A stretch of DNA of 64,000 nucleotides from Bhargavaea beijingensis (GTDB lineage: Bacteria; Bacillota; Bacilli; Bacillales_A; Planococcaceae): contig NZ_FNAR01000002.1 of NCBI RefSeq assembly GCF_900101985.1, positions 186,001 through 250,000 of the forward strand, written 5' to 3'. The notes below the pieces were generated by a model, which was not told the origin of the DNA, did not search any database, and worked only from the letters and a program-made list of their open reading frames with translations. Shown here in pieces: positions 943 to 52,765 of the stretch (the stretch's first letter is position 1; every line of letters begins with the position of its first letter). Made by a program: the position numbers and the translations under genes.

Positions 943-961
943 TCCGGTTTCCTCCCCTAAA

Positions 962-1828: not shown

Positions 1829-1844
1829 CGTCATTCTCCTTTTA

Positions 1845-2714: not shown

Positions 2715-2760
2715 AGCAGCAGATCTCCTTCTTTGGGGGATAAGTGCGGAGCGGCTTTGA

Positions 2761-4438: not shown

Positions 4439-4463
4439 CCGGCGAACCTCCCGTTGTCAAAAT

Positions 4464-4502
4464 AAAAAAATCTTCTTAATCTCACAAAGAGAAAAAGAAG
4501 AC
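4464..4502 (-). terminator. riboswitch expression platform terminator
   Basis: On the minus strand TCTTCTT...CTC-loop-GAG...AAGAAGA is followed by a run of seven T. The alternative antiterminator pairs TCTTTTTCTC (4490-4500) with GAGAAAAAGA (4515-4524), so SAM binding decides which hairpin forms upstream of metN. Confidence 0.8.
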
Positions 4503-4521
4503 CTGTCAGGGCCATCTTTTT

Positions 4522-4630
4522 CTCATCTTCCAGATGCAACTGCATCTGCAGGAATTAGCACGGTGCCGCCAACAATTGGGGTCCGCTGCCGAGACGTCCT
4601 AGGGCCTGTCCCTCGGTCTCTCTGGATAAG
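4522..4630 (-). ncRNA. SAM-I (S-box) riboswitch aptamer
   Basis: Read on the minus strand, this starts with CTTATCCAGAGAG and continues with the GAGGGA...GGCCC helix, the GGCAGCGGACC segment, GGTGCTAATTCC and a closing GATGAG. CTTATC pairs with GATGAG to form P1. These are the conserved S-box landmarks. It lies between the metN promoter and metN and should bind S-adenosylmethionine to stop transcription at the following terminator. Confidence 0.92.
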
Positions 4631-4670
4631 AAAAGATGTACATATTCGATTAGTGCAACAATTGGAACTA

Positions 4671-4699
4671 ACTCTACTTCGAACCGACAGGGAAGTCAA
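4671..4699 (-). promoter_or_regulatory. sigma-A type promoter of the metNIQQ operon
   Basis: On the minus strand TTGACT (4699-4694) and TAGAGT (4676-4671) are separated by exactly 17 bases and lie just upstream of the S-box leader. Confidence 0.75.
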
Positions 4700-4836
4700 C
4701 GACTTTTAAAAAGTATTTCTATTCTGATTAATAGTCAGTCGCCATGGAAGCGCTTGCTAACTGTTGAGGCGCATGGAAAGTGAGGAGGATAAAAAAAGTC
4801 GGGGACTCCGGGCTAAGGGAAACTGTTCAATAGCCG

Positions 4837-4982
4837 GTTTCGTCATTCGACGGTTTGGTTTCGTCATTCGTCCGTTCAGTTTCGGCATTGGACCGGAAAG
4901 TTTCGTCATTCCCCTCAATATGGCGGCCGAATGACGAAACTGGAGACCCGAATGACGAAACTTCTTCATCGAATGACGAAAC
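4837..4982. repeat. 21-bp-period repeat array A1 (GTTTCGTCATTCG family, inverted arms)
   Basis: Four direct units GTTTCGTCATTCG begin at 4837, 4858, 4879 and 4900. Three reverse-complement units CGAATGACGAAAC begin at 4928, 4949 and 4970. Every step is 21 bp except the central 28 bp between the arms. The 8 bases between cores vary freely. It lies between the 3' end of the ABC-2 permease gene and the metN promoter. No gene is convincing here, although open frames read through as heptapeptides. Confidence 0.92.
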
Positions 4983-4983
4983 T

Positions 4984-5012
4984 GAGCTCCGGCACTTAGT
5001 TGCCGGAGCTCA
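4984..5012 (-). terminator. hairpin after the ABC-2 permease gene
   Basis: GAGCTCCGGC-loop-GCCGGAGCTC is a perfect 10-bp stem directly downstream of the permease stop. The T-tract is weak because the repeat array starts at once. Confidence 0.55.
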
Positions 5013-16842: not shown

Positions 16843-16878
16843 GCGGGGCTGCCTGGTGGGCAGCCCCGCTTCATTTTG
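16843..16878 (+). terminator. terminator of the opp/racemase operon
   Basis: GCGGGGCTGCC-loop-GGCAGCCCCGC followed by TTCATTTT, about 110 bases after the racemase stop. Confidence 0.82.
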
Positions 16879-16896
16879 GAGTAAAACTCCGCGTTG

Positions 16897-17084
16897 GTTT
16901 CGTCATTCATCCGTTCAATCTCGTCATTGGACGGAAAAGTCTCGTCATTGGCGAGGAAAGTTTCGTCATTCGCCCCTGATAAGAGGGCGAATGACGAAAC
17001 TGAGCCCGTGAATGACGAAACCGGAGGACGGAATGATGAAACTGAGCCCGTGAATGACGAAACTGGTGCAGCGAATGGCGAAAT
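16897..17084. repeat. 21-bp-period repeat array A2 (GTTTCGTCATTCG family, inverted arms)
   Basis: Four forward units begin at 16897, 16918, 16939 and 16960. Five reverse-complement units begin at 16988, 17009, 17030, 17051 and 17072. All steps are 21 bp except the 28-bp step across the centre, exactly as in A1 and A3. It sits between two terminators of convergent genes. The open frames across it are heptapeptide repeats without a ribosome binding site and were not called. Confidence 0.92.
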
Positions 17085-17097
17085 CGGAAGGCATCAT

Positions 17098-17130
17098 AAA
17101 AACAGGGCCGCCTCGGTGGCAGCCCTGTTC
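17098..17130 (-). terminator. terminator of the GDPD gene
   Basis: On the minus strand AACAGGGCTGCC-loop-GGCGGCCCTGTTTTTAT, 12 bases after the stop codon. Confidence 0.82.
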
Positions 17131-20804: not shown

Positions 20805-20887
20805 TTCAACCCCCCGTCCTGTCGATTGGTCCCTATTCGGTCCTATTCCCGTAAACTCCGTGTCCCGAAACCTAAGATCAAAAAAGT

Positions 20888-20939
20888 GTTGACGGGCAAT
20901 TCTGTTTTCTGTACGATTTGTATACAAAGAATGTATACA
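20888..20939 (+). promoter_or_regulatory. promoter with GntR-type operators upstream of the FCD regulator
   Basis: TTGACG (20888-20893) and TACGAT (20911-20916) have a 17-bp spacer. They are followed at once by TTGTATACAA (20917-20926) and TGTATACAA (20931-20939). TGTATACA palindromes are typical of GntR/FadR binding, so autoregulation is likely. Confidence 0.75.
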
Positions 20940-20963
20940 AATCCGGCGAGAAGAAGGTGCCCC

Positions 20964-21632
20964 ATGCGAAACACTGCCCAGGAATTCGCCTATTGCGAAA
21001 TCAAAAAACGGATCATCGACGGGAAACTGGTCCCGGCGCAGCCGGTGGTGGAGGAAGAGATTTCGGCAAGGCTGGAAATCAGCCGTACGCCTCTTCGGGC
21101 GGCCCTGCAGCGTCTGGAACACGAGAAGCTGGTTGAGCGGCTGGAAAACGGCCGCCTCAGGATTGCTGATATTTCCGCCAAGGAAGTCAAAGAACTCTTT
21201 ACCGTACGCTGCAAGCTGGAGGAAATAGCCGTTTTTGAGGCGACAGCACACGCCACGGAAGAAGATCTGGCGGAACTTGCCGGTCTCGCGGACAAGATCC
21301 GGGCCGCTCTGGAGTCGGGCAACCTGGACGACATCCTGGAATACGGCTCCCGGTTCCACACAGCCATCTACCGGCTGAGCCGGAACGAGACGGTCACCGA
21401 TTTTCTTTCACTGATCAATGACCGGATCCGCCGCTACCGCCGTCTGGTTCCGAACCACAGGCTGGAGAGGGCGATTGCGGAAGGGGAAGAGCATGACCAA
21501 ATTGTCCGCTGCATGGCCGAACGCGATGCGGAAGGCGCGGGGACGGCGATGAAGCAGCACATTGAAAACAGCCTGAAAACCGCCCTTGAAGCCGTCGAGC
21601 AATATGAGCGGAACAAACAAGAAGTCTGGTAA
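20964..21632 (+). CDS. GntR family transcriptional regulator, FCD (FadR) subfamily
   Basis: Winged helix at the N-terminus (VVEEEISARLEISRTPLRAALQRLEHEKLV) and an all-helical FCD ligand domain with the expected metal-binding histidine positions (SRFHTAIYRLSRN, HDQIVRCMAERD). It is 222 residues from the ATG at 20964, which follows GAAGGTG. It lies 20 bases before the PLP lyase gene and probably controls itself and that gene through the TGTATACA sites. Confidence 0.92.
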   Translation: MRNTAQEFAYCEIKKRIIDGKLVPAQPVVEEEISARLEISRTPLRAALQRLEHEKLVERLENGRLRIADISAKEVKELFTVRCKLEEIAVFEATAHATEEDLAELAGLADKIRAALESGNLDDILEYGSRFHTAIYRLSRNETVTDFLSLINDRIRRYRRLVPNHRLERAIAEGEEHDQIVRCMAERDAEGAGTAMKQHIENSLKTALEAVEQYERNKQEVW

Positions 21633-21652
21633 GCCAGAAGGAGGCAGTGACG

Positions 21653-22855
21653 ATGACAATGAAGAAACGCTTTAATACCGAAGCGATCCATGCCGAACAG
21701 TGCCCGGACGAACAGTCCGGAGCGGTGTCCCAGTCCATCATTCCGGCGGTCGCCTACTGTTTCGACGACGCGGAATCCGCGGTCGAAGTCGTTTCGGGCC
21801 TGAAAGACGCCACGTATTACGGGCGTTACGGAAACCCGACCACCCGGACACTCGAGAAAAAAGTCGCCCGGCTTGAACGGGCGGAAGACGCACTCGGCGT
21901 CAGCAGCGGCATGGCGGCCATCTCCATTGCCCTCATGGCGAACCTCCGGAGCGGCGACCACGTCGTCGTCACCAAGGACGTGTACGGCGGCACACACAAA
22001 TTCCTCTCCAACATCGCAACACGCTATGGGATTGAATACGACTTTGTCGACTGCACGGATGCCGGGACAATCGAACAGGCCATCCGGCCGAACACGCGGG
22101 TCCTTTACATCGAGACACCGTCCAACCCGACCCTGACACTGATCGACATCCGGGAAGTGGCCGCGGTCGCCAAGCGGCACGGGCTGAAAACGATCGTAGA
22201 CAACACCTTCATGACCCCTTATCTTCAAAAGCCGATCGAACTCGGGGCGGACATTGTCGTCCACAGCGCGACCAAGTACCTGAACGGCCACGGCGACGTC
22301 ATCGCCGGCATCATCTGCGGCACCAAAGCGGACATCGAATTCATGAAAAACAACATCATGGGAGACCTCGGCCAGAACCTGAACGCCTGGGAAGCCTTCC
22401 TGATTCTCCGCGGCATCAAAACCCTCGGCATCCGCATGGAACAGCACTGCCGAAACGCCCAGGCCGTCGCGGAATACCTAGAACAGCACCCGATGGTCAA
22501 ACGCGTCTACTACCCGGGCCTCCCGTCCCACCCGCAGCACGGCCTGGCAAAAAAACAAATGAACAACACAGGCGGCATCATTGCCTTCGAGTTGAAAGGT
22601 GACGTTTGTACCGGGAAAAACTTCATCAGCGCACTGGACATCGCCATGATCTCCTTTAGCCTCGGCGACCCCGAAACCCTCGTCCAGCACCCCGCCTCGA
22701 TGACCCACTCCTCCATCCCGGAAGACCAGTTGCATGAATTCGGCCTCTCCCAAGGCCTCATCCGGTTATCGGTCGGACTGGAAGATGTGGAAGACATCAT
22801 CGAAGATTTGGAACAGGCGCTGGCAACGGTACAGGGGGCAGTGGTGGGAAGGTGA
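21653..22855 (+). CDS. trans-sulfuration PLP enzyme, probable methionine gamma-lyase / cystathionine gamma-lyase
   Basis: Cys/Met metabolism PLP-dependent enzyme (400 residues). The cofactor lysine is in HSATKYLNGHGDVIAG, and the substrate loop YYGRYGNPTTRTLE, GVSSGMAAI and the C-terminal SVGLED are canonical. AAGGAGG points to ATG 21653 rather than GTG 21647. It could release methanethiol from methionine or H2S from cysteine or homocysteine. Family-level assignment is firm but substrate choice is not. It is controlled by the adjacent FCD regulator, probably in response to a sulfur amino acid. Confidence 0.9.
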   Translation: MTMKKRFNTEAIHAEQCPDEQSGAVSQSIIPAVAYCFDDAESAVEVVSGLKDATYYGRYGNPTTRTLEKKVARLERAEDALGVSSGMAAISIALMANLRSGDHVVVTKDVYGGTHKFLSNIATRYGIEYDFVDCTDAGTIEQAIRPNTRVLYIETPSNPTLTLIDIREVAAVAKRHGLKTIVDNTFMTPYLQKPIELGADIVVHSATKYLNGHGDVIAGIICGTKADIEFMKNNIMGDLGQNLNAWEAFLILRGIKTLGIRMEQHCRNAQAVAEYLEQHPMVKRVYYPGLPSHPQHGLAKKQMNNTGGIIAFELKGDVCTGKNFISALDIAMISFSLGDPETLVQHPASMTHSSIPEDQLHEFGLSQGLIRLSVGLEDVEDIIEDLEQALATVQGAVVGR

Positions 22856-22863
22856 ATACTTGA

Positions 22864-22893
22864 TGGGAAGAGCCGTTGATTGCGGCTCTTTTT
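22864..22893 (+). terminator. terminator after the PLP lyase
   Basis: AAGAGCCG-loop-CGGCTCTT followed by TTTT. Confidence 0.82.
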
Positions 22894-22931
22894 TGGTGGG
22901 GTGAGGGAGGGCATCGGGGCTGGGCGCGAGT

Positions 22932-23590
22932 GAGTGCTTTCAAACTGCGGGCGAGTGCTTCGACATCGGTGGAGAGTGCGTCCAAATTTATCGTGAGTGC
23001 TTCCAAACCATGGGCGAGTGCTTCGAAAATCGGACGAGCGGTCCAGGTTTCTCCTGGAGGTGAGTGCTTCGAAATTTGCAGCGAGCGCTTCCAAATTCAT
23101 CGAGAGTGCTTCCAAATCCCGCGCGGGTGCTTCGGATGATCGGATGGGTGGTCCAGGGTGCCCCTGGAGATGAGTGCTTCGAAATTGACGCCAAGTGCGT
23201 CCAAATTCATCGCGAATGCTTCCAAATCCCGCGCGAGTGCTTCGAAGATCAGGCAAGTGGCCAAGGTTTCTCCCTCTGGAGGTGAGTGCTTCGAAATTTG
23301 CAGCGAGTGCGTCCAAACTTATCGCGAGTGCTTCAGAACCATGGGTGAGTGCTTCGAAAATCGAACGAGTAGTCCAGGGTGCCCCTGGAGATGAGTGCTT
23401 CAAAATTGACGCCGAGTGCGTCCAAATTCATCGCGAGTGCTTCGAAACCATGGGCGAGTGCTTCGAATGATCAGGCGAGTGGCCAAGGTCTCCCCCCTGG
23501 AGGTGAGTGCTTCGAAATTTGCAACGAGCGCGTCCAAACTCATGGCGGGCCCTTCGAACCGCTTTTCCAGTGCAACGAAATTTCCCGCGG
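22932..23590. repeat. large 21-bp-period repeat array B1 (GAGTGCTTCGAAA family) with higher-order repeat
   Basis: Units GAGTGCTTCGAAA / GAGTGCTTCCAAA / GAGTGCGTCCAAA begin at 22932, 22953, 22974, 22995 and 23016, and then in blocks starting at 23062, 23172, 23284, 23393 and 23505. Within blocks the step is 21 bp. Each block ends with a linker carrying CCAGG-N5-CCTGG or a close variant. Blocks are about 110 bp long and alternate between two types (aaatttgcagc and aaattgacgcc), giving a super-repeat of about 220 bp. No gene was called, because the frames are unbroken only through the heptapeptide periodicity. Confidence 0.92.
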
Positions 23591-23778
23591 CCACACTCAA
23601 CTCAGTGACGAATCCGCCCAATTGTGTCCACCTTAAATCAGCAAAATCAAAATTCACCCCTACATCCCCCTGCGAATTTCAAAATTGGCATCACTTTTTG
23701 CTTCCTTTTCTAATTTTGCCGAGTTGTGTATCAAGCACATTCCAAGAGTGGTATTTTCTTGGATAGGGGGTGTTGACC

Positions 23779-24771
23779 ATGGGGCCACGAAAGTATCCGG
23801 TGGAACTTCTCCGGCTCAAGCGGCTGCACGTGCGGATGTATGCCCATGACCCGGAGCGGGGATACGTAGCGGAACTGATCAGCCGGGCGGAGGCGGGCTA
23901 CAAGGGAGAGACAACTGTGGTTAATTACCTGCGCGGACTCAGGCTGCCGGGCAAATCGATGCTCCTAAGGAATATTCGGCTACAGATCAGGGAGGAGTAT
24001 GTCGCGCAATTTGATACGCTGCTGATTACAGAGCGGGGGATATGGATCATCGAAGCGAAAATGATCCGCGGGTCGCTCCAGTTGCTTACGAATCCGAGTA
24101 GAATGGAGCGCACCGATGAATCCGGTGCTGTTCTGACGATGGACTGCCCGATTCTCCAGCTGGAAAATCAGAAGACCGGGCTGGGGGAGTGGCTGGAGGA
24201 GAGGGGCTTGTTCCTGCCGATCCGCGGTGTGGTCGCATTCGCCACCCGCAACACATGGACCGGCCTTCCGGAAAACGCTCCGATCGTCTCGGTGAAAGAA
24301 CTCAAGTCTATGCTGATAAAATCGGTCAACCGGTCACCTCCGCCGGACCCGAGCTTTAGTTCCCTGAATGAAGTCGTGAACCGTCTGGTCGCGGAAGAGT
24401 TGGGGCCAGACATGAGATCATTCGAAGAAATGGGGATTAAGCACGGCCCGTTGAAAGAGGGAACCATTTGCGAGAACTGTTTTGCTTCCCTGGAAAGGAA
24501 GGGGGAGAGAAAATTCCTATGCCCCCTATGCAAAGCGCAGGTTGAAGGGAACCCCGTCACGCGTGCGCTCCGCGATTATTTCCTAGTCTTCAAGCCATGG
24601 ATCACAAACCGAGAATTCTGCAAGTTTGCCGGCCTCCGGTGTCTTTCCACAGGCAATCGGTACTTGATGCAGCATGAACTGGACCGCGGACTGAGATCGG
24701 TTCATCACTTCGATGCAAGAAAACATTTGGAGGGAATGGAGCTAAGGAAAGTGAAACGCGATTCACTTTAG
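23779..24771 (+). CDS. NERD domain protein with C-terminal zinc-finger-like region (copy 1)
   Basis: Nuclease-related (NERD) domain protein of 330 residues. The core motif is seen in VAQFDTLLITERGIWIIEAKMIRG, and GVVAFATRNTW follows it. Near residue 235 CENC ... CPLC suggests a bound zinc ion. A C-terminal helical region follows. GGGGG lies 8 bases before the ATG at 23779; the GTG at 23770 is too close. It is a distant paralogue of the NERD protein near 52 kb. NERD proteins are presumed to act on DNA or RNA, but activity is unproven. It lies between repeat arrays B1 and B2. Confidence 0.85.
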   Translation: MGPRKYPVELLRLKRLHVRMYAHDPERGYVAELISRAEAGYKGETTVVNYLRGLRLPGKSMLLRNIRLQIREEYVAQFDTLLITERGIWIIEAKMIRGSLQLLTNPSRMERTDESGAVLTMDCPILQLENQKTGLGEWLEERGLFLPIRGVVAFATRNTWTGLPENAPIVSVKELKSMLIKSVNRSPPPDPSFSSLNEVVNRLVAEELGPDMRSFEEMGIKHGPLKEGTICENCFASLERKGERKFLCPLCKAQVEGNPVTRALRDYFLVFKPWITNREFCKFAGLRCLSTGNRYLMQHELDRGLRSVHHFDARKHLEGMELRKVKRDSL

Positions 24772-25076: not shown

Positions 25077-25096
25077 CAATTTGTCCGCGTTCAAGT

Positions 25097-25180
25097 GAGT
25101 GCTTCCAAACATAACACGAGTGCTTCGAATCCCCATCCGAGTGCACGCAAATCGCCTGCGAGTGCATCGAAAGGGTTTCC
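25097..25180. repeat. repeat array B2 (GAGTGCTTCGAAA family)
   Basis: Four units begin at 25097, 25118, 25139 and 25160, with an exact 21-bp step and degenerate third and fourth units (GAGTGCACGCAAA, GAGTGCATCGAAA). It lies between the 52-residue gene terminator and glycerate kinase. Confidence 0.88.
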
Positions 25181-25212
25181 CATACCCTAAGCAGAATAAG
25201 AGAACAAACAGT

Positions 25213-26450: not shown

Positions 26451-26480
26451 CTTCCGCTCCGGCGGAAGCCCTCCTTTTGA
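26451..26480 (+). terminator. terminator after glycerate kinase
   Basis: GGCTTCCG-ctcc-(gg)CGGAAGCC followed by CTCCTTTT. Confidence 0.7.
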
Positions 26481-26483
26481 AGA

Positions 26484-26566
26484 TTTGGAGGCACTCAGCG
26501 TCATTTTGGAAGCACTCACTCCCGATTTGGAAGCACTCAATACCGGCGATAAAGCACTCGCCATAT
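26484..26566. repeat. repeat array B3 (inverted GAGTGCTTCGAAA units)
   Basis: Units TTTGGAGGCACTC / TTTGGAAGCACTC begin at 26484, 26505 and 26526, with a degenerate one at 26547; the step is 21 bp. The minus-strand SMI1-like frame runs straight through it, adding SASK-type heptapeptides. Confidence 0.85.
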
Positions 26567-27139
26567 CTCGTTGCCTCCGCTCCTTTTCCTCCTCCGCCAG
26601 CAACTCTTCAAAAAACGCCCCATACCTCTCCCTCGCATCCGCCGGGAAGCGAGCGCTCAGTCGGCCCAATTCGCCGCATTGCGTTTCGGCAGTGTCCAGG
26701 ACAATCAGGCTTTCCAGCGGCTCGGCCAGCACGATGAAACGGGAGGGGAGACCGATACTTCCCCTCAGCCGCAGTGTTTCCCCTTTGATGTAGGGTTCGC
26801 AATCGCCCGGGATGGCAAAGTGGCTGATGCCGCCGAGAAAGCCGCTGCTGTAGAACACACAAATGTCCCGGAACGTTTCCGGAAGCCGGATGCCCAATGT
26901 CTTTTCGATGTCATCCAATTGCGTTTTTGCCGTTCCCTCGGCAGGGAAGTATGTGGTGTACCGCTGCTTAAGCGGAATTATCTGAATGCACCTACCCCGT
27001 CATCTGGTGATGAATAAAATGCCATGAATCATAGGGTAACGATCATCATATAACCTAAAGGGGGATTGCTCAGACAGTTCGCTGCCGGGTGACCCGGGAT
27101 GAAGGGGCTTTCTTAACACTCAACCAGCCGCGAATCCGT

Positions 27140-31449: not shown

Positions 31450-31469
31450 GTTTCTATTGGGGGCGTTCC

Positions 31470-32045
31470 CGAGAGTGAGTACTTCCAAAACGGGGACGAG
31501 TGCTTCGAACGGGAGCCCCAGTGCTTCCAAATCCTTCGTGAGTGCATCAAAACTTCGCCCCAGTGGCTCGAATGATAGTTCCAGCACACTTAATTGCGGA
31601 AGGCCACGGCCTTCCTGCCGGATGAATCGTCCCCCTGAGATTCCGCCAATCAGGGGTGAGTGGTTACCTATGGACAGTGAGTGGTTACCCCGGATAGCTC
31701 ATTTCCCGATGGGAGGACATTCAGACTTGGGATTGATTTCTGCGGCTGATCAATCGCCGGCTGAATCCGGCGTTCCCTTAGAAGGTTTTTGCCTTTGGGG
31801 GGAGGCGAGTGCTTCGAACGAGAGCCCAGTGCTTCCAAATCCTCCGCGAGTGCTTCGAAACTTCGCCCAAGTGGCTCGAATGATAGTAATTGCGTAAGGC
31901 CGCGGCCTACCTTCTGATGAATGGCCCTCCACTGAGATCCGGCCAATCGGAGGTGAGTGGTTACCAACGGACGGTGAGTGGTTACCCCGGATGGCTCATT
32001 TCCCGATGGGGGCCATTCAGACTTAGGATTGATTACGCACCATGA
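31470..32045. repeat. left composite repeat block (two tandem about-300-bp elements)
   Basis: Each element consists of B-type units (GAGTGCTTCGAA), then GTGGCTCGAATGATAG, a palindrome AAGGCC(N)CGGCCTT or similar, CTGAGATTCCGCCAATC, two C-type units in reverse (GAGTGGTTACC, step 21 bp), CTCATTTCCCGATGGG and CATTCAGACTTGGGATTGATT. The first copy begins near 31470, the second near 31800. The same composite occurs twice in inverted orientation at 40935-41580. No gene was called within it. Confidence 0.9.
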
Positions 32046-32099: not shown

Positions 32100-32132
32100 A
32101 AAGAAAAGCACCAATTGCGGACGCTTTTCTTT
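32100..32132 (-). terminator. terminator of the distal PoNi-like gene
   Basis: On the minus strand AAAGAAAAGCGTCC-loop-GGTGCTTTTCTTTTT, starting at the stop codon. Confidence 0.75.
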
Positions 32133-32842
32133 CAGTCTTTATAATGAACCATGTCGTACGGGTAGTAGGGGACGTCTTTCAGGTTGCTATCATCCAGCCC
32201 CAAGATCTTCGCAACTGCACCACTCTCATAGCTCCAATAACCATTGTAAATGTCATCTTGATGCTTATGACTGTCATGCCACTCGGTGTCCTCGTGCCCA
32301 GGATACCAATGGTTTTCAAGGTATGCCTTAATCATCTGAATTTGCTCTTGTTTATCGTTTAAACGAGTGATGCTGATTAATTTTTGATAAGGGTCTTCTT
32401 GCAGCAAATAATCGGACAATATCTGTGGAGACGAAACCTTTGATGACAACAAGTAATCAATCAGCGAATCTTTCAAGTCGTGTTCTCTAATCAGTTTTTC
32501 TAATTGCTCGAAGTATTTTTGATCAATATCCAACATGATTCCAATAGAGAGAATCCAAAGCATCTCCAGATAATGGCCTTTCCATGCCTTCTGCATTGAC
32601 TCAATAACATCTGGAACAAAATCCTTGATTTCCTTGAGATCCCTTCCGCCTGAATACATGGCATTTAATTTATTGAAATGAAATAACCTTATTGCTCTAA
32701 GTCCGTTTTGTGCTCCTTTATCGTGTATCCCACGCTCTTCAATAACGGAGTTCAATAACTCTTTGAACTCTAAGATTGATTCATCTTCAAATTTAATATA
32801 TTTATCAAAGTACTGTTCATCTCTTAAAGGATCTCTAACCAT
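32132..32842 (-). CDS. PoNi-like immunity protein (DUF1910/DUF1911), module 5
   Basis: Predicted immunity protein of 236 residues. The N-terminal part (MVRDPLRDEQYFDKYIKFED) matches the DUF1910 pattern. The C-terminal part ends in the strongly conserved block GYWSYESGAVAKILGLDD ... DVPYYPYDMVHYK of DUF1911. Proteins of this type neutralise PoNe-family DNase toxins. AGGAGTG precedes the ATG. Its paralogues in this island differ mostly in the middle and N-terminal parts, as expected if each recognises a different toxin variant. No toxin is directly in front of it, only an immunity fragment. Confidence 0.85.
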   Translation of the reverse strand: MVRDPLRDEQYFDKYIKFEDESILEFKELLNSVIEERGIHDKGAQNGLRAIRLFHFNKLNAMYSGGRDLKEIKDFVPDVIESMQKAWKGHYLEMLWILSIGIMLDIDQKYFEQLEKLIREHDLKDSLIDYLLSSKVSSPQILSDYLLQEDPYQKLISITRLNDKQEQIQMIKAYLENHWYPGHEDTEWHDSHKHQDDIYNGYWSYESGAVAKILGLDDSNLKDVPYYPYDMVHYKD

Positions 32843-32988
32843 TTAACCACTCCTATTTTGCCGAGGTTCCTTCCACGCTCATTGATCAGCTGCTCCGCCA
32901 AACCCTCAAACTCAACGATTGCGGAATGATATTGTTCGATATAGTCCTTGAAATAATCCTTGTCTTTCAGGTGGTCTCTCATCAGCAT
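32824..32988 (-). pseudogene. N-terminal fragment of another PoNi-like gene
   Basis: A 54-residue frame reads MLMRDHLKDKDYFKDYIEQY, then AIVEFEGLAEQLINERGRNLG. This is the start of a PoNi protein, broken exactly at GGAAGGAACCTCGGC. The same sequence occurs at toxin-module junctions near 37410 and in the complete toxin near 39160. It then overlaps the next immunity gene start. A recombination scar is the best explanation. Confidence 0.7.
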
Positions 32989-33100
32989 CGATCCCCTTCA
33001 CTAGCTTACGATACCAACAGTTTACCATTTGGAGATGAGGGCATCAGTGCTGTCTGGGATGTGAGCGGTGACAGGGTCTTTAAAGGGGAAGGGTTTGAAA

Positions 33101-33134
33101 AAGAAAAGCGCCCATTGCGGACGCTTTTCTTTTA
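33101..33134 (-). terminator. terminator after the truncated immunity gene
   Basis: On the minus strand AAAAGAAAAGCGTCC-loop-GGGCGCTTTTCTTTTT, overlapping the stop. Confidence 0.75.
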
Positions 33135-33491
33135 GCCTTTATAGTGAACCATGTCATACGGGTAGTAGGGGACGTCTTTCAGGCTGCTGTCATCCACCCC
33201 GAGAATTTTAGAAACTGCGCCGCTTTCAAAGCTCCAGTAGCCGCTATAGATCGGATCCGGATGTTTGTGCGTGTCATGCCAGCCAGAATCTGAATGGCCA
33301 TTGTACCAGTACTTTTCAAGGTATTTTCTCAAATTCTCCACTTTATTTTCAGCATTAATGACATCTACCAGCTTAGCATAAGGGGTCTTAAACTTAAGAT
33401 GGCCCTCAAACGTTTCACTACCGTGCAGCTTACCTTGAATCAAAAAATCAAGAAGTCCGTCCTGCAATTCATAACTTCTTACCAATCCCAC
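33132..33491 (-). pseudogene. C-terminal half of a PoNi-like immunity gene
   Basis: A 119-residue frame covers only the DUF1911-type end (LQDGLLDFLIQGK ... GYWSFESGAVSKILGVDDSS ... YYPYDMVHYKG). Upstream it joins directly to a toxin fragment in another frame near 33495. The N-terminal half and the toxin's C-terminus were thus lost in one deletion. It could still be translated from ATG 33491 but probably gives a non-functional product. Confidence 0.75.
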
Positions 33492-33921
33492 AAGCCGATG
33501 GTGCTTTTTCTAATCGCTTTGAAGAATGGACCCATGGATCACCCATTTGTTTTCCGGATTTTGTCTGTTTAAGTCTTGAGCGATTGTATTTCGCCTCAGC
33601 AACAATGAATTTTGGCGGAGGACCGGCATCTTCGTATACTCCATCTATACCTTTAGTAATACTCTGGTCTAACTTCGTAACTCGATCTCTGCTAATTCTA
33701 TTGTATCCCTGACTCTCATAATGCACATCCATCATCTTCATCTCGCCGTAGTTGCCTTTTTGTTTATTAGTTCGGAGTTTAACATCTCCGGATTCGACGG
33801 ATTTGATGATGGAGCGCTGCTGAATCTGCGCAACTTCAGGGGCGGTGAAGTGGCGTTTTCCTTTGAGCGCCGTATTGTTGGCGTCGGTTTTGAACCACTT
33901 GCCGACGGGGGATTCCTTTCC
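33469..33921 (-). pseudogene. orphan PoNe-type toxin fragment fused to immunity remnant (module 4)
   Basis: The frame opens after a stop at 33922 with GKESPVGKWFKTDANNTALK and continues through the nuclease core (QKGNYGEMKMMDVHYES, GIDGVYEDAGPPPKFIVAEAKYN). It ends abnormally (RLEKAPSACGIGKKL) where it meets the immunity gene. The LXG delivery domain and a start signal are absent. One additional Met codon is inserted after GEMKM relative to sister modules. Confidence 0.75.
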
Positions 33922-33962
33922 TTAAAACCATCCTAAACAAATTACCAATAGGTTAACAACAG

Positions 33963-33990
33963 AAGACGCCCAAAGCGGACGCCTTCTGTT
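33963..33990 (-). terminator. terminator after immunity gene of module 3
   Basis: On the minus strand AGAAGGCGTCC-loop-GGGCGTCTTCT, directly after the stop. Confidence 0.65.
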
Positions 33991-34706
33991 TAATCGTTAT
34001 AGTGGACCATGTCATACGGGTAATAGGGGACATTCTTCAGGCTGCTGTCATCCAACCCCAATATCTTTACAATAGCCCCGCTTTCAAAACTCCAGTAGCC
34101 ACTGTAGATATCATCCCTATGTTTATGGGAATCATACCAGCCTGCATCACGATGTCCTTTGTACCAGTACTTTTCAAGATAGGTTTTCATCTTTTCAATC
34201 TGGTTCGTTTCTCCATCTGTTTGAATCACTTCAACCAAATTAGCGTAGGGATCCTCAAACAATAGGTTTTCTTTAATGGTTCTGGTGCGTTCTTTCTTGC
34301 CTTGAATCAGGAATTCAATCAGACTGTCGTGCAAGTCATACTTTCTGACCAAGCGTTCCAATCGGGCAAATTGTTCATCTTCTATATTGAGCATCACGCC
34401 GATTGAGAGCATCCAAAGCATTTTTACATAGTGTCCCCCATCCCAGGAATGTTCGATTGAATCGATCACTTCGTGAAAAAAATCACGTATTTCCGCGATA
34501 GAGCAACCTGCTGAGTACATGGCACGTAATTTGTTGAATTTATAATTGGTTAAAGAAATGAATCCGTTCCGAACACCCGGGTCCTCGGCTCCCCTTTGTT
34601 CGATTACTATAGAAATCCCATGTTTAAATTTTTTTATTTTCCTGTCTTCCTCAGCCAAGTACTTATCAAAGTAGGATTGGTCTTTGAATTGATCTCTAAT
34701 CATCAT
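33990..34706 (-). CDS. PoNi-like immunity protein (DUF1910/DUF1911), module 3
   Basis: Complete immunity paralogue of 238 residues. It has the MIRDQFKDQSYFDKYLAEED N-terminus, a helical middle, and the conserved end GYWSFESGAIVKILGLDDSSLKNVPYYPYDMVHYND. It starts immediately after the orphan toxin's stop, with AAGGGGGA as ribosome binding site, and either of the adjacent ATGs (34706, 34703) may be used. Toxin and antidote thus remain an adjacent pair even though the toxin has lost its delivery domain. Confidence 0.85.
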   Translation of the reverse strand: MMIRDQFKDQSYFDKYLAEEDRKIKKFKHGISIVIEQRGAEDPGVRNGFISLTNYKFNKLRAMYSAGCSIAEIRDFFHEVIDSIEHSWDGGHYVKMLWMLSIGVMLNIEDEQFARLERLVRKYDLHDSLIEFLIQGKKERTRTIKENLLFEDPYANLVEVIQTDGETNQIEKMKTYLEKYWYKGHRDAGWYDSHKHRDDIYSGYWSFESGAIVKILGLDDSSLKNVPYYPYDMVHYND

Positions 34707-35789
34707 CTAGTCCCCCTTAATAAATCCCCTGTTATCTAGAAATTTCTCAATGATTTCTCCATTAGCTTTAATTCTGATTAATTTACTTTGTACATTATTA
34801 GGATTCATAAGTTTTTCATACGCAACTTCTTCAGCTTTTATTTTTCCAATTGCATCCTCTAAACGTTCATCTATCCAGTCGTTGTTCATTTGCCTATGGT
34901 GTTTTGTATGTTGTAGCTGTGCTGAATTATATTTAGCTTCGGCTATAATGTACTTCGGTGGTGGTGACGAATTTTCATAAACTCCATCAATTCCTTTAGC
35001 AATAGGCTGATCTAACTTCGTTACTCGACCTTCACTAATCCTGGCATATCCCTGACTCTCATAATGCACATCCATCTTCATCTCGCCGTAGTTACCTTTT
35101 TGTTGATTGTTTTTCAATTTGGTTTTTCCGGATTCTACAGATTTTATAGCATTCCGCTGCTGGATTTGTGCAACTTCAGTGGCGGTGTAGTGGCGTTTTC
35201 CTTTGAACGCGACATCGTTGGTGTCAGCTTTGAACCACTTGCCGATTGGGGTTTCTTTCACCAGTTTAAATCCAAGCTTCCCGGCTTTTACGCCTTTGCC
35301 CATCGGCGTCATGCCGAAGATGGCGATGCCTTTTTGCAGGAGGGAGGAGTCCTTGTCGGTGATGGTTTTTAAATCGTCGAACAACATAGTGTCAGCAAAC
35401 TCTTTTGCAGCGTTGAGGAATCCGTTTTCGCTTTTTGCTTCAGGCTTTTTGGTGCTGTTTCCGATTGCCGCGCTAGGAGCGGTCATCAGCGATTCAGGCG
35501 GAAGACCTTCCAGGGTCGAGAATCCGAGTTGAGCAATCCACTGTTCCATTGCCTGGAGTTGGTCTGACACGGGCATCAGCCGGTTTGTCTGTGTGGCGTC
35601 GAATTCATTCAGATCACTGACGGTCTGATTCTTTTCCCGGCGTGCATCCAGTACGCCCTCCTGTACCTGACTGTCATCCAAGTGGGGGAGGCTGACGATA
35701 TCGGCAACCTGGTCCATAATGGCATTGGTCTCATCCGTCAGGTTACTGGAAATCCGGGCAATCTGATTTAGCCCATTCTCTACTTCACT
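34707..35789 (-). pseudogene. orphan LXG-PoNe toxin, 5' truncated (module 3)
   Basis: Opens after a TAG at 35790 with SEVENGLNQIARISSNLTD, which corresponds to residue about 120 of the full toxin, so most of the LXG domain is missing. Compared with the full toxin it also lacks about 55 residues between MEQWIAQ and STLEG. The linker and complete nuclease are intact (KGNYGEMKMDVHYES, GIDGVYENSSPPPKYIIAEAKYN, then a variant-specific tail ending NRGFIKGD). ATG 35717 has no clear ribosome binding site. It is probably a silent donor cassette, with its immunity gene directly after it. Confidence 0.8.
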
Positions 35790-35821
35790 CTAGGTAGTAA
35801 CTCATAGAAGTGTAGACGAAG

Positions 35822-35850
35822 AGAAGGCACCCGATGTGGATGCCTTCTTG
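35822..35850 (-). terminator. module terminator (copy 1 of 3)
   Basis: AGAAGGCA-loop-TGCCTTCT, directly after the module 2 immunity stop. The same hairpin recurs at 37582 and 40064 with its flanking leader. Confidence 0.75.
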
Positions 35851-36567
35851 TTACTTCTTATAATGGACCATATCATACGGGTAATAGGGGACATCTTTCA
35901 GGCTGCTGTCGTCGAGCTTGAGGATTTTTGCCACCGCTCCGCTTTCAAAACTCCAGTATCCACTGTATATTGGATCTCGGTGTTTATGAGAGTCATACCA
36001 CCCGGAATCGCTATGGCCGGTGTACCAGTACTTTTCCAGATAAAGCTTCAATTTTTTTAACTGCTCCTCTTTGTCCGGGTTGTCTATTACATCAGCCAAT
36101 TTGGCGTAAGGGCGATTGTAAAGAAGTTCACCACTAAGATTTTTTTTGTCACCTTGCTCTTTCCCTTTAATCAGAAATTCCAAAAGACCGTCTTGCACAT
36201 TGTATTTCCTCACGAGTCCAACCAGTCTGTCAAACTGGTCGTTTGCTACATCTAACATGACTCCAATGGATAACATGCGGAGCATCTCTTCATAGTTTTC
36301 TCCATTCCATGACTTCTCCAATACTCCAATGACATCAAGGAAAAAGTCTCGGACCTCATTTATAGGGTGACTTGAGGAATAAAGTGCCTCTAACTTTGAT
36401 AAGTAATAACCGGTCAATATGATGTATCCGACACGCACTCCATCATCATGTTCGCCTCGTTGCTGTATGACCATCTTTATTGCTTTAGAATACTTTTCAA
36501 TCCTGGCAGTTTCATCTTGAATAAATTTTTCGAAATAAAGGTCGTCTTTTAAAAAGTCCCTTGCCAT
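35851..36567 (-). CDS. PoNi-like immunity protein (DUF1910/DUF1911), module 2
   Basis: Complete 238-residue immunity paralogue (MARDFLKDDLYFEKFIQDET ... GYWSFESGAVAKILKLDDSSLKDVPYYPYDMVHYKK). AAGGAG lies 8 bases before ATG 36567. It follows the frameshifted orphan toxin of the same module by about 20 bases. Sequence divergence from its sisters is concentrated outside the C-terminal block. Confidence 0.86.
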   Translation of the reverse strand: MARDFLKDDLYFEKFIQDETARIEKYSKAIKMVIQQRGEHDDGVRVGYIILTGYYLSKLEALYSSSHPINEVRDFFLDVIGVLEKSWNGENYEEMLRMLSIGVMLDVANDQFDRLVGLVRKYNVQDGLLEFLIKGKEQGDKKNLSGELLYNRPYAKLADVIDNPDKEEQLKKLKLYLEKYWYTGHSDSGWYDSHKHRDPIYSGYWSFESGAVAKILKLDDSSLKDVPYYPYDMVHYKK

Positions 36568-36586
36568 TATGATTCTCCTTACAATC

Positions 36587-37413
36587 CTAATCGATTACTT
36601 TCTCGATTACTTCTCCACCCGGTTTTATACGAAGCAATTTCTTTTGGATGTTATCAGGATTATACAGCCTTTCAAATGCTATCTCATCAGCCTTTTCTAA
36701 GCCGACTGCATTCTTTAGACGACGTGCCTCAAATACCCAATTATCACTCATCTGTTGATTTCCCTTTTCGGGTCCTTAATAGTAGCTTTGCCAAGTCTCG
36801 AGGTATTATATTTTGCCTCTGCAATAATAAACTTTGGCGGAGGAGTTGAATTTTCGTAGACACCATCAATGCCTTTAGCAATAGGCTGATCTAACTTCGT
36901 TACTCGACCTTCACTAATCCTGGTATACCCCTGACTCTCATAATGTACATCCATCTTCATCTCGCCGTAGTTGCCTTTTTGTTGATTGTTTTTCAATTTG
37001 GTTTTTCCGGATTCTACAGATTTTATAGCATTCCGCTGCTGGATTTGTGCAACTTCAGTGGCGGTGAAGTGGCGTTTTCCTTTGAGCGCCGCATTATTAG
37101 CGTCAGCTTTGAACCACTTGCCGACTGGGGTTTCCTTCACCAGTTTAAATCCAAGCTTCCCGGCTTTTACGCCTTTGCCCATCGGCGTCATGCCGAAGAT
37201 GGCGATGCCTTTTTGCAGGAGAGAGGAGTCCTTGTCTGTAATGGTTTCCAGATCGTCGAGTAGTGCAAAATCCGCTAAGTCTTTTGCGACCTTGAGGAAT
37301 CCGTTCTCGCTGTCTGCTTCGGGTTTTCCGGTGCTGTTTCCGATTGTCGCGCTAGGAGCGGTCATCAGTGATTCAGGAGGAAGTCCTTCCAGGTTTGAGA
37401 AGCCGAGGTTCCT
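36587..37413 (-). pseudogene. orphan PoNe-type toxin, 5' truncated and frameshifted (module 2)
   Basis: Opens after a stop at 37414 with RNLGFSNLEGLPPESLMTAP, corresponding to residue about 245 of the full toxin, and keeps the linker and nuclease core. Near 36755 a one-base slip in CCGAAAAGGGAAATC ends the frame at 36748. The sister-like tail (QQMSDNWVFEARRLKNAVGL ... PGGEVIEKVID) continues in the next frame to 36587. Its upstream sequence is a near-copy of the leader and start region of the complete toxin, joined at the AAGGAACC motif. Confidence 0.82.
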
Positions 37414-37429
37414 TCATTCTCCATCACCT

Positions 37430-37625
37430 TCTTCTGCGGATTGCACAGCAAAAATCAATTACCAATAGTTTACCATTGGGGGTTGGCCGAGGGACTGCGA
37501 CGTTTAGCCCGTTTTTGCTAGAGGGTGGAAGGAGGATGGACGCTGTCTTATAGGTAAGAACTCACAGAAGAGCAGACGGAGAGAAGGCACCCGATGTGGA
37601 TGCCTTCTTGTTACTTCTTATAGTG
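37430..37625. repeat. duplicated module leader block (copy 1)
   Basis: About 190 bp nearly identical to 39905-40105. It includes CACCTTCTTCTGCGGA, TTACCAATAGTTTACCATTG, GGGACTGCGACGTTTAGCCC, GGTGGAAGGAGGATGGACGC and the module terminator. It marks the unit that was copied when modules were duplicated. Confidence 0.88.
37582..37611 (-). terminator. module terminator (copy 2 of 3)
   Basis: AGAAGGCA-loop-TGCCTTCT, directly after the immunity gene of the complete toxin. Confidence 0.75.
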
Positions 37626-38324
37626 GACCATGTCATACGGGTAGTAGGGTACACCCTTCAAACTCTCGTCATTCAGCCCCAAGATCTTCGCAACCGCACC
37701 GCTCTCATAGCTCCAATAACCTGTATAGATGGCATCCCAATGTTTATGGCTATCATGCCATCCGGTGTCTTCGTGGCCATCATACCAGTGAATCTCAAGA
37801 TATTCCTTCAGCTTTTGGACCTGCTGTTTTTGATTATCCAAGTAGATCAGGTTAAAAAGATTTTGGTAAGGATCTTCGTGCAGCAATGGGCTGTTGCTTT
37901 CATTGGAAGCCAGACCTCTCGAGGACAAGAGGAAATCGATCAAAGCATCTTCCAATTCATAGGTCCTGATCAGCTCTTCTAGCCGGGCTAAATCAGAGTC
38001 ATCTATTTCAAGCATGATTCCAATGGAGAGGAGCCAAAGCATTTGGATATAGTGACCGCCGCTCCATGCATTCTCCATTGTATCAATAACTTCTGGTATA
38101 AAGTCTCGTATATTTTCTAATGGAACGCCGCCTGAATACATGGCATTCAATTTATTGAAGTTGTAAGTGTTTAATGAAATAAAACCATTTTGCACACCTT
38201 CATCTTCTATCCCGCGTTCCGCAATCACGACTTTTAACAGATCTTTAAATTCGTCAATGCTCTCATTTTCGGACTCCAAATACTTTTTGAAATAGTTTTC
38301 ATCTCTTAAGGAATCTCTAACCAC
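37611..38324 (-). CDS. PoNi-like immunity protein of the complete LXG toxin
   Basis: Cognate immunity protein (237 residues; DUF1910/DUF1911 pattern). It begins MVRDSLRDENYFKKYLESEN and ends with GYWSYESGAVAKILGLND ... GVPYYPYDMVHYKK. The GTG at 38324 after GGAGTGA is preferred to the ATG at 38351, because it aligns with sister N-termini. It starts 5 bases after the stop of the complete toxin, the usual toxin-then-immunity order. It should bind the nuclease domain in the cytoplasm and prevent self-killing. Confidence 0.88.
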   Translation of the reverse strand: MVRDSLRDENYFKKYLESENESIDEFKDLLKVVIAERGIEDEGVQNGFISLNTYNFNKLNAMYSGGVPLENIRDFIPEVIDTMENAWSGGHYIQMLWLLSIGIMLEIDDSDLARLEELIRTYELEDALIDFLLSSRGLASNESNSPLLHEDPYQNLFNLIYLDNQKQQVQKLKEYLEIHWYDGHEDTGWHDSHKHWDAIYTGYWSYESGAVAKILGLNDESLKGVPYYPYDMVHYKK

Positions 38325-38328
38325 GCAA

Positions 38329-39900
38329 TCACTCCATTTCTTTAAAGCCATCCTTATTAAGATGTTTTATATCTGTTTTCCCCTCTTTGGATACTTTTAC
38401 AAGATCCTTTCTAACGTTGTTTGGGTTAAGGAGTTTCTCCTTGTTGAGTTCTTTGGTTTTTTGTTTGCCTATTGCATTTTCAAGTCTATCTGACACCCAA
38501 ATGTCATCCATCTGTCTTCTTCCATCTTTTAAATTCTTTAATCGGGATTTATTATATTTGGCTTCCGCAATTACAAATTTAGGCGGTGGGGATGAATTTT
38601 CATAAACTCCATCAATTCCTTTAGCAATAGGCTGATCTAACTTCGTAACTCGATCTCTGCTAATTCTATTGTATCCCTGACTCTCATAATGCACATCCAT
38701 TTTCATCTCGCCGTAGTTGCCTTTTTGCTGGTTGTTTTTCAGTTTGGTTTTTCCGGATTCTACATATTTTATAGCATTCCGCTGCTGGATTTGTGCAACT
38801 TCAGTGGCGGTGTAGTGGCGTTTTCCTTTGAGTGCCGTATTGTTGGCGTCAGTTTTGAACCACTTGCCTACTGGGGTTTCCTTCACCAGTTTAAAACCAA
38901 GCTTCCCGGCCTTCACTCCTTTGCCCATCGGCGTCATGCCGAAGATGGCGATGCCTTTTTGCAGGAGGGAGGAGTCCTTGTCCGTGATGGTTTCCAGATC
39001 ATCGAGTAGTGCAAAATCCGCTAAGTCTTTTGCAACCTTGAGGAATCCGTTCTGGCTTTCTGCTTCTGGTTTTTCGGTGCTGTTTCCGATTGCAGCATTA
39101 GGAGCAGTCATCAGTGATTCAGGAGTGATACCTTCGAGAGTGGAGGAGCCAAGGTTCCTTCCATTGTACAAAACATTCTGGGGGTTCTCCATGCCGTTCA
39201 GGCCGTTGACGCTATCCATCGTTGCGGATTGGTGTGCCAGTCCTTGCTGGAGCGGAGACCTGGCCACCACTGCGGCCCATTGCTGTGTAGGGAAATCAAC
39301 GCCAGTCAATCCGCTCTGGAACAAGGATTCGATTTGAGCGATCCACTGTTCCATTGCCTGGAGTTGGTCTGATACGGGCATCAGCCGGTTTGTCTGTGTG
39401 GCGTCGAATTCATTCAGATCACTGACGGTCCGATTCTTATCTCGGCGTGCATCCAGTACGCCCTCCTGTACCTGACTGTCATCCAGGTGGGGGAGGCTGA
39501 CGATATCGGCAACCTGGTCCATGACGGCATTGGTCTCATCCGTCAGGTTACTGGAGATCCGGGCAATTTGATTGAGCCCATTCTCCACTTCACTTTCAAT
39601 AAAACCTTCATCTATGTAGCCGTCGGGGGCAGGCTCCAGCGCATCCGCTGCGGATTCGATGCCGGCCAATGTGCTGTGGAAGTTCTCTTTGAACAGGAGA
39701 AAGTACTCGAGAAAAGGCAGGTGGCATTCCTGATAAAATCTCCTGATGGCGTCTCCGCCCTGGCCTTTCAGTGCTTCGTTCAGTTGGACCAGTTCTCTGA
39801 CGGAGTCCATAATGAGCGTCATTTCGCTCTCCAGCAGGTTCAATGTCTCCTTATTGCGCGCCAGCCCCTCCTCAAACGCGGGGGCATCCAACACCTTCAA
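38329..39900 (-). CDS. LXG-domain polymorphic toxin with PoNe-type DNase C-terminus (complete)
   Basis: A 523-residue predicted type VII-secreted antibacterial toxin. The N-terminal LXG domain (about 1-230) opens MKVLDAPAFEEGLARNKETL and includes LNEALKGQGGDAIRRFYQEC. A linker (about 245-370) is nearly identical in the orphan modules. The nuclease at about 395-450 has KGNYGEMKMD, GIDGVYENSSPP and FVIAEAKYN, fitting the E...D...ExK pattern of PD-(D/E)xK-like PoNe DNases. A variable tail ends DGFKEME. The start is TTG 39900 after GAAGGTGATGGAG. The cognate immunity gene follows. No secretion-system genes or small LXG partner proteins are in the window. Confidence 0.9.
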   Translation of the reverse strand: MKVLDAPAFEEGLARNKETLNLLESEMTLIMDSVRELVQLNEALKGQGGDAIRRFYQECHLPFLEYFLLFKENFHSTLAGIESAADALEPAPDGYIDEGFIESEVENGLNQIARISSNLTDETNAVMDQVADIVSLPHLDDSQVQEGVLDARRDKNRTVSDLNEFDATQTNRLMPVSDQLQAMEQWIAQIESLFQSGLTGVDFPTQQWAAVVARSPLQQGLAHQSATMDSVNGLNGMENPQNVLYNGRNLGSSTLEGITPESLMTAPNAAIGNSTEKPEAESQNGFLKVAKDLADFALLDDLETITDKDSSLLQKGIAIFGMTPMGKGVKAGKLGFKLVKETPVGKWFKTDANNTALKGKRHYTATEVAQIQQRNAIKYVESGKTKLKNNQQKGNYGEMKMDVHYESQGYNRISRDRVTKLDQPIAKGIDGVYENSSPPPKFVIAEAKYNKSRLKNLKDGRRQMDDIWVSDRLENAIGKQKTKELNKEKLLNPNNVRKDLVKVSKEGKTDIKHLNKDGFKEME

Positions 39901-40934: not shown

Positions 40935-41580
40935 TTCATCCAAAAGGAGAAGGAAGGCCGAGGCCTTCCTTCATTAAATGTGCTGGAACCCATCATTCGA
41001 GTCACTCGGGCGAAGCTTCGAAGCACTCGCATAGGATTTGGGAGCACTGGGGGCCCCGCTCGAAGCACTCGCCCTCACCACGGCAAACCCCTTCTGAAAG
41101 GAACGCCGGCCAAGGCCGGCGATTGAACTGCCGTAGAAATCAATCCCAAGTCTGAATGGACCCCATCGGCGATGAGCAACCCGAGGTAATCACTCGCGGT
41201 CCGTAGGTAACCACTCACCCCCGATTGGCGGAATCTCAGTAGGGCGCGAAGGCGGCTTTTCATTTAGAAGGAAGGCCTCGGCCTTCCTCCATTAAGTCTG
41301 CTGGAACTATCATTCGAGCCACTGGGGCAAGGTTTCGAAGCACTGGCGGGAGATTTGGAAGCACTGGGGCTCCCTTTCGAAGCACTCGCCACCATTTTGG
41401 AAGCACTCGCCCACGCCAATGCAAAACCCTTCTGAAGGGAACGCCAGCCACGGCCGGCGATTGATCTGGCGAAGTAACCATTCACAAGGCTGCAAGGCTC
41501 CCATAGGCAATGAGCCACCCGAGGTCATCATTCATCCCAAATTGGCAGAATCTCAGTAGGGGGCGAGGCGGGAGTTCATG
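40935..41580. repeat. right composite repeat block (two tandem elements, inverted to the left block)
   Basis: Two copies of the composite element described at 31470-32045, here on the opposite strand. Landmarks are GGAAGGCC(N)AGGCCTTCC or similar, ATCATTCGAGTCACT, CGAAGCACTCG units, CGCCGGCC...GGCCGGCGATTGA, AATCAATCCCAAGTCTGAATG, GGTAATCACTCGC / GGTAACCACTCAC units and CGGAATCTCAGTAGG. Together with the left block it brackets the toxin-immunity island as inverted repeats. Confidence 0.9.
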
Positions 41581-41597
41581 CCTTGTTCGTAGGGAAA

Positions 41598-41743
41598 GTT
41601 TCGTCATTCGTTTGCTCAGTTTCGTCATTGGGCCGTAAAGTTTCGTCATTCGCACCGGCGAGTAGCGCGAATGACGAAACCGGGGAGCGGAATGACGAAA
41701 CTAAGTGTGCGAATGGCGAAACCGGAGGGGCGAATGACGAAAC
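41598..41743. repeat. 21-bp-period repeat array A3 (GTTTCGTCATTCG family, inverted arms)
   Basis: Three forward units begin at 41598, 41619 and 41640. Four reverse-complement units begin at 41668, 41689, 41710 and 41731. Steps are 21 bp, with the same 28-bp central step as A1 and A2. It lies between the composite block and the SGNH gene terminator. Confidence 0.92.
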
Positions 41744-41815
41744 CGGCTGCCGCATGCTGTTTTCGTCGGATGCGTGAGCCTGCCGCTGCCAGGATGCCAG
41801 ATCACCTTCTAAGAC

Positions 41816-52652: not shown

Positions 52653-52765
52653 GTAACTACTCGCCCCGCCGCCGCCATGATTCGCCGGCTGCCATCCCTT
52701 TGGAAGCACTCGCGTCCCCGTTCGAAGCACTCCCCGCCGTTTTGGAAGCACTCGGGCACCCGGTT
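52631..52765. repeat. mixed C-type and inverted B-type repeats, overlapping the NERD 3' end
   Basis: GGTAACCACTCAC at 52631 and GGTAACTACTCGC at 52652 (step 21 bp). The inverted B units TTTGGAAGCACTC, GTTCGAAGCACTC and TTTGGAAGCACTC follow between about 52699 and 52753, also at 21-bp steps. Confidence 0.85.

Follow-up and report, generated by a model that had tools for sequence, protein, structure and literature searches.

Tandem repeats of constant unit size, 20-21 or 52 nt, have been described in noncoding DNA of Bacillus and other bacteria by Subirana and Messeguer (2021; PMC8161180), who report that the sequences are specific to a species yet retain a short conserved signature, and that one genome can hold several families of equal size. 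The same authors remark on two helical turns and propose a polymerizing DNA-binding protein, nucleoid stabilization or small RNAs (PMC8161180). The class is already described but poorly understood. The main text of that paper mentions neither Planococcus nor Sporosarcina, and our literature search, incomplete in coverage, returned no description of such arrays in Bhargavaea or Caryophanaceae.

Array B1 of Bhargavaea beijingensis, a ~640-bp intergenic run of 21-bp repeats, is a member of this 20-21-nt class in all testable features. Unit length is equal, with core-to-core spacing of exactly 21 bp in 133 of 135 neighboring pairs (pairs at most 22 bp apart, two species). B1 is noncoding, lying between a Cys/Met metabolism gene and a NERD-domain gene. 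Several families occur per genome, namely three core words in the window (the whole 64,000-nucleotide stretch of DNA analyzed) and several in another genome of the genus, G004; and the words differ by genome.

Block structure of array B1

B1 is built of blocks of ~110 bp, each comprised of four or five 21-bp units and then a linker of 26-29 bp (Table 1). Within a block the spacing of units is 21 bp, shortened in some cases to 20 bp for the final unit. A first, sequence-only reading had placed a 21-bp array at 22932-23590, and the array is borne out, running from 22932 to ~23567; the block starts given there (23062, 23172, 23284, 23393 and 23505) are all exact. Block lengths are 110, 112, 109 and 112 bp and two-block distances 222, 221 and 221 bp, and TRF assigns B1 a 221-bp period with a score of 829, the top score of the window. 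ORFs overlapping B1 have no Pfam match, and B1 itself has no Rfam match. Because the block lengths are not multiples of 3, no fixed reading frame passes through the array; a coding 7-aa repeat was accordingly rejected, as one frame through all units is broken by the 26-29 bp linkers and 109-112 bp blocks. A terminator-like hairpin (~22868-22894) lies between the upstream Cys/Met gene and B1.

Table 1 Positions of array B1, its parts, its neighboring genes and related arrays in the window
Feature	Coordinates	Strand	Remarks
Second-word array	4810..5005	.	GTTTCGTCATTCG inverted about centre to CGAATGACGAAAC
Second-word array	16876..17100	.	16-bp central stem
Upstream gene, Cys/Met metabolism PLP-dependent enzyme	21647..22855	+	
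Array B1, whole	22932..23567 (end ~23567)	+	21-bp units, GAGTGCTTCsAAA plus 8-nt spacer, grouped in blocks
Block 0	22932..23061	+	five units (fifth of 20 bp), linker L0 at 23036-23061
L0 stem	23042..23058		TCCAGG-TTTCT-CCTGGA, 6 bp
Block 1	23062..23171	+	four units, linker L1 at 23146-23171
L1 stem	23152..23168		TCCAGGG-TGC-CCCTGGA, 7 bp
Block 2	23172..23283	+	four units (fourth of 20 bp), linker L2 at 23255-23283, inverted repeat broken
Block 3	23284..23392	+	four units (fourth of 20 bp), linker L3 at 23367-23392
L3 stem	23373..23389		TCCAGGG-TGC-CCCTGGA, 7 bp
Block 4	23393..23504	+	four units, linker L4 at 23477-23504, inverted repeat broken
Block 5	23505..23567	+	decaying terminal units, no linker
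Downstream gene, NERD-domain protein	23770..24771	+	syntenic in B. massiliensis
Array with B1 core word	25081..25186	+	
Array with B1 core word	26461..26588	-	
Two ~310-bp super-repeats	31467..32034	+	21-bp units and hairpins inside
Inverted relatives of the 31467..32034 super-repeats	40950..41534	-	81% over 421 bp
Second-word array	41564..41760	.	
Array with B1 core word	52670..52755	-	

Linkers L0-L4 are 26, 26, 29, 26 and 28 bp long, and each starts like another unit (GAGTGG..). All five had been read as CCAGG-N5-CCTGG or a variant of it; a true inverted repeat is present in three (L0, L1 and L3; shuffle P 0.008, 0.001 and 0.005), whereas in L2 and L4 the left arm, CCAAGG, has no counterpart on the right and folding is no stronger than in shuffled sequences (P 0.34 and 0.46). 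The single linker at the corresponding B. massiliensis locus, CCAAGG-GTGC-CCTTGG, has matched arms (P 0.004). L2 and L4 keep this left arm with a different right arm, as would be expected if linkers had recombined. Linkers as intrinsic terminators were rejected, given that GGAGRTGAGTGC follows the linkers, with no T run. The five bases by which a 26-bp linker exceeds a unit (21 + 5) amount to roughly half a helical turn, and 221 bp, the length of two blocks, corresponds to 21.05 turns; this may be chance.

The proposal that two block types alternate, giving a super-repeat of ~220 bp, stands for the linker type and the first two units and is otherwise weak. The linkers read, in order, TTTCT../GGAGGT, GTGCC/GGAGAT, TTTCTCCCT../GGAGGT, GTGCC/GGAGAT and TCTCCCC/GGAGGT, and the spacer of the unit after each linker alternates in step with linker type (TTTGCAGC, TTGACGCC and so on). 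For the first two units, pairwise gapped alignment gives identities of 0.88-0.95 between blocks of the same parity and 0.81-0.83 across parity. Over whole blocks, mean gapped identity across all columns is 0.79 at lag 1, 0.83 at lag 2 and 0.81 at lag 3, so that the two-block offset exceeds the one-block offset in the comparison that had been suggested as a check; the preference reaches 0.04 in a one-sided column bootstrap and p=0.15 under block-order permutation, in an array whose five full blocks are too few for a strong test. Ungapped self-match, the signal visible in a dot plot, peaks instead at 331 (three blocks, 0.61), above 221 (0.51), because the block lengths happen to sum there without indels, and for this reason ungapped self-match alone was rejected as a two-block test.

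Units 3-4 break the parity, with CCCGCGC common to blocks 1 and 2 and CCATGGG common to blocks 0, 3 and 4. Pairwise block identity is 71-90% (78-90% among the five full blocks), which, together with the 21-bp spacing and the single B. massiliensis linker, supports the earlier view that B1 grew as blocks were duplicated while a fixed 21-bp register was kept. The other part of that view, a two-block unit duplicated cleanly, is one reading only: since block parts group differently, a mosaic left by several overlapping unequal exchanges is the better fit.

Related arrays in the window and in Caryophanaceae

B1 had been treated as an isolated case and is instead one of many 21-bp arrays in its genome. 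Three core words are represented among the ~15 arrays of the window: GAGTGCTTCsAAA, CGAATGACGAAAC (in arrays inverted about their centre) and GTGAGTGGTTACC. All 29 AGTGCTTCnAA sites of the window lie inside repeat arrays. When the window was scanned without a motif for periods of 10-44, only 21 and 42 were clearly enriched (430 and 147 positions), with 3 positions at period 15 and none at the other periods. The core words were not found in viral contigs. Arrays in divergent intergenic regions number 0 of 12 on the window's contig and 3 in B. massiliensis, counts that are not significant and depend on approximate gene calls. Other arrays of these genomes also contain super-repeats, with lengths of ~190, ~205 and ~310-350 bp, indicating that block duplication is usual for these 21-bp arrays. 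Hairpins of the form GGAAGGCC-nn-GGCCTTCC recur in the ~310-bp super-repeats (31596-31622, 41258-41292 and 40944-40976), and it may be that blocks in general combine a hairpin with 21-bp units.

The inverted array copies at 31467-32034 and 40950-41534 bracket a low-G+C cluster (32132-39900) in which two LXG genes, one full-length (38329-39900) and one shorter (34707-35717), accompany four PoNi immunity genes. Positions 41541-41800, comprising an inverted-centre array and its flanks, match B. massiliensis at 96% identity across 260 bp, in a surrounding alignment of 88%. A minus-strand SAM riboswitch (4520-4632) lies upstream of minus-strand genes that probably form a predicted methionine transporter operon, and a 21-bp array lies just beyond. 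Rearrangement of positions 1-4671 was considered and ruled out by a wider synteny map, the match being paralogous.

A motif-free period scan finds 21-bp intergenic arrays with genome-specific words in many, not all, of the sampled Caryophanaceae genomes, several of which were picked for a prior pattern match, so that the scan shows spread and not frequency; it was used in place of a pattern search that demands GARTG by construction. Other 21-bp words include TTTATCACCACTC in G190 and G202, GAATGTTAAGCAAA in G004 and TTTGTTGCGCTAACT in G011. G004, of the same genus, has several different 21-bp words within 40 kb (L121 and L122), and two of its arrays, at L121:7203 and L121:8070, do not differ in the first 110 bases compared. 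A GART anchor is enriched overall, occurring in 29 of the 78 consensus units (null mean 5.6, maximum 13). When the two focal species are set aside it is present in 8 of 38, for which the null has a mean of 3.1 and a maximum of 9, and we do not claim GART as a family-wide anchor. The stretches sampled in two other genomes of the genus, G003 (120 kb) and G001 (60 kb), yielded no clear noncoding 21-bp array, and neither did those of G037 and G038, which are class-level relatives (60 kb in total). With none seen in sampled G003 and G001, the 21-bp arrays appear dispensable.

Core conservation and possible roles of the arrays

The NERD gene of B. massiliensis (protein 92% identical) is preceded by about seven units and one linker, compared with five linkers in B1, and block number therefore differs between the species. 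The single linker mixes features of both B1 types, which suggests that B1 was expanded in the window's species. Neither the GntR nor the Cys/Met gene that precedes B1 is present at the B. massiliensis locus, and the junction lies at the array edge; this cassette (20878-22931, compared with L063:4392) has homologues in G003 and G001.

Across 13 syntenic array segments, with cores ascertained in the window's genome only, the 13-bp cores are 92.8% identical between the two species (731/788) and the 8-bp spacers 75.1% (256/341), a difference with a locus-bootstrap CI of 0.13-0.23. Ascertainment in B. massiliensis instead yields 94.0% for cores and 75.0% for spacers, and neutral simulation of one-genome ascertainment gives core identities of 0.77-0.82, at most ~0.82. 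Other DNA aligned between the species, mostly genes, is 88.3% identical. A portion of the aligned units may be paralogs and not orthologs, but paralogy would not explain shared cores with differing spacers, because both parts of a unit are equally old. By this comparison of sequences, array cores are constrained across species while spacers drift, and a non-selective account would require a process that copies cores without spacers.

We give about an even chance to the interpretation that B1, like many other intergenic arrays dispersed through the genome, is a series of putative protein-binding 13-bp cores set two helical turns apart, with copies changing by unequal exchange. Periodicity and its exactness, conserved cores beside drifting spacers, the dispersal of arrays across the genome and the differing block number of the two species are direct observations. 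The core would be the predicted recognition site of a sequence-specific DNA-binding protein, which would assemble side by side along one face of the DNA, every two helical turns, with a putative role in chromosome organization or in insulation of adjoining genes. Units and whole blocks would be gained and lost through unequal exchange or replication slippage, perhaps aided by the hairpin-forming linkers, and one linker, the B. massiliensis state, would have become five in the window's species, leaving a mosaic with partial two-block alternation. Against this interpretation, the core constraint could act on RNA or reflect a core-rewriting copying mechanism, several words per genome would require several proteins or one of loose specificity, the arrays appear dispensable to judge from sampled G003 and G001, and two of the five B1 linkers have lost the inverted repeat. 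More tentatively, and with confidence well short of even, we suggest that chromosomes of many Caryophanaceae may be marked by genome-specific 12-13-bp words at invariant two-turn spacing, for which fast-evolving DNA-binding readers, or an enzyme that rewrites cores and not spacers, would be candidates.

A neutral minisatellite, changing by slippage and unequal exchange without function and owing its 21-bp period to one founding duplication, would explain the block mosaicism of B1, the copy-number difference between species and the lack of arrays in the sampled parts of some relatives. It would also fit a weak association between arrays and gene-content indels (7 of 14 indel sites compared with 6 of 40 elsewhere between genes, p=0.025; p=0.15 when the comparison is with intergenic sites of at least 150 bp), which is suggestive only. 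We nonetheless consider it unlikely, and as regards the cores it is already disfavored, as the cores are far more conserved than equally old spacers, and slightly more than their mostly coding surroundings, and unrelated words share a period of 21 bp, both inside single genomes and from one genome to another. That the arrays act as RNA, being transcribed structured repeats (a small RNA, a sponge, or 3' processing or termination signals), we judge improbable. The 52-nt satellites of Bacillus coagulans are reported to be transcribed (PMC8625621; PMC8161180), arrays of the second word turn over at their centre and include a stem of 16 bp, and three of five B1 linkers have hairpins; yet B1 is a direct repeat located beyond the terminator-like hairpin of its upstream gene, the other two linkers have no stem, Rfam offers no match in B1, and the strict 21-bp spacing of direct arrays has no obvious RNA reason.

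Mobility, with the arrays either propagated as a MITE-like or REP-like element or serving as landing sites for inserted gene cassettes, seems to us quite improbable. The ~310-bp super-repeat at 31467-32034 does have inverted, 81% identical relatives at 40950-41410 with a toxin-immunity cluster between them, and the GntR and Cys/Met cassette adjoins B1 and is missing from the syntenic B. massiliensis locus. Copying of whole elements, however, would not be expected to leave loci with cores but not spacers in common, many arrays hold syntenic positions in both species, and no target-site duplication was noticed on unsystematic inspection.

Comparison with known repeat classes

Block duplication in B1 is in itself ordinary minisatellite behavior. 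Core constraint and spacer drift at strict two-turn spacing, on the other hand, are sequence evidence that something recognizes the arrays, and the Bhargavaea arrays offer an entry point to the question of what recognizes the conserved cores. The genus is also suited to comparing array gain and loss, as arrays are rich in two species and none was clearly seen in sampled G003 and G001.

B1 differs from a CRISPR array, in which repeats of ~23-50 nt are separated by spacers of similar length, in having a 13-nt core and an 8-nt spacer, and from plasmid and phage iterons, direct repeats of ~20 bp beside a replication initiator gene, in that its flanking genes are not initiators. The REP/BIME elements of enterobacteria are dispersed intergenic repeats, some with hairpins, whose palindromic units occur in inverted pairs. 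B1 and its kin are similarly dispersed and intergenic, with some hairpins, but the B1 unit is a direct 21-bp repeat at exact spacing, with stems confined to some linkers. Like minisatellites and VNTR loci, B1 varies in copy number through block duplication; those terms denote a general genetic behavior and not a functional family, and core constraint, unexpected there, is present in the Bhargavaea arrays. The 52-nt repeats of Bacillus coagulans and relatives are likewise constant in size, variable in sequence and dispersed (PMC8161180, PMC8625621), and differ from B1 in their unit of 52 rather than 21 nt. To the constant-size 20-21-nt repeats, B1 adds super-repeats of four units and a linker, some with a hairpin, and the Bhargavaea arrays add a measurement of core versus spacer constraint between species.
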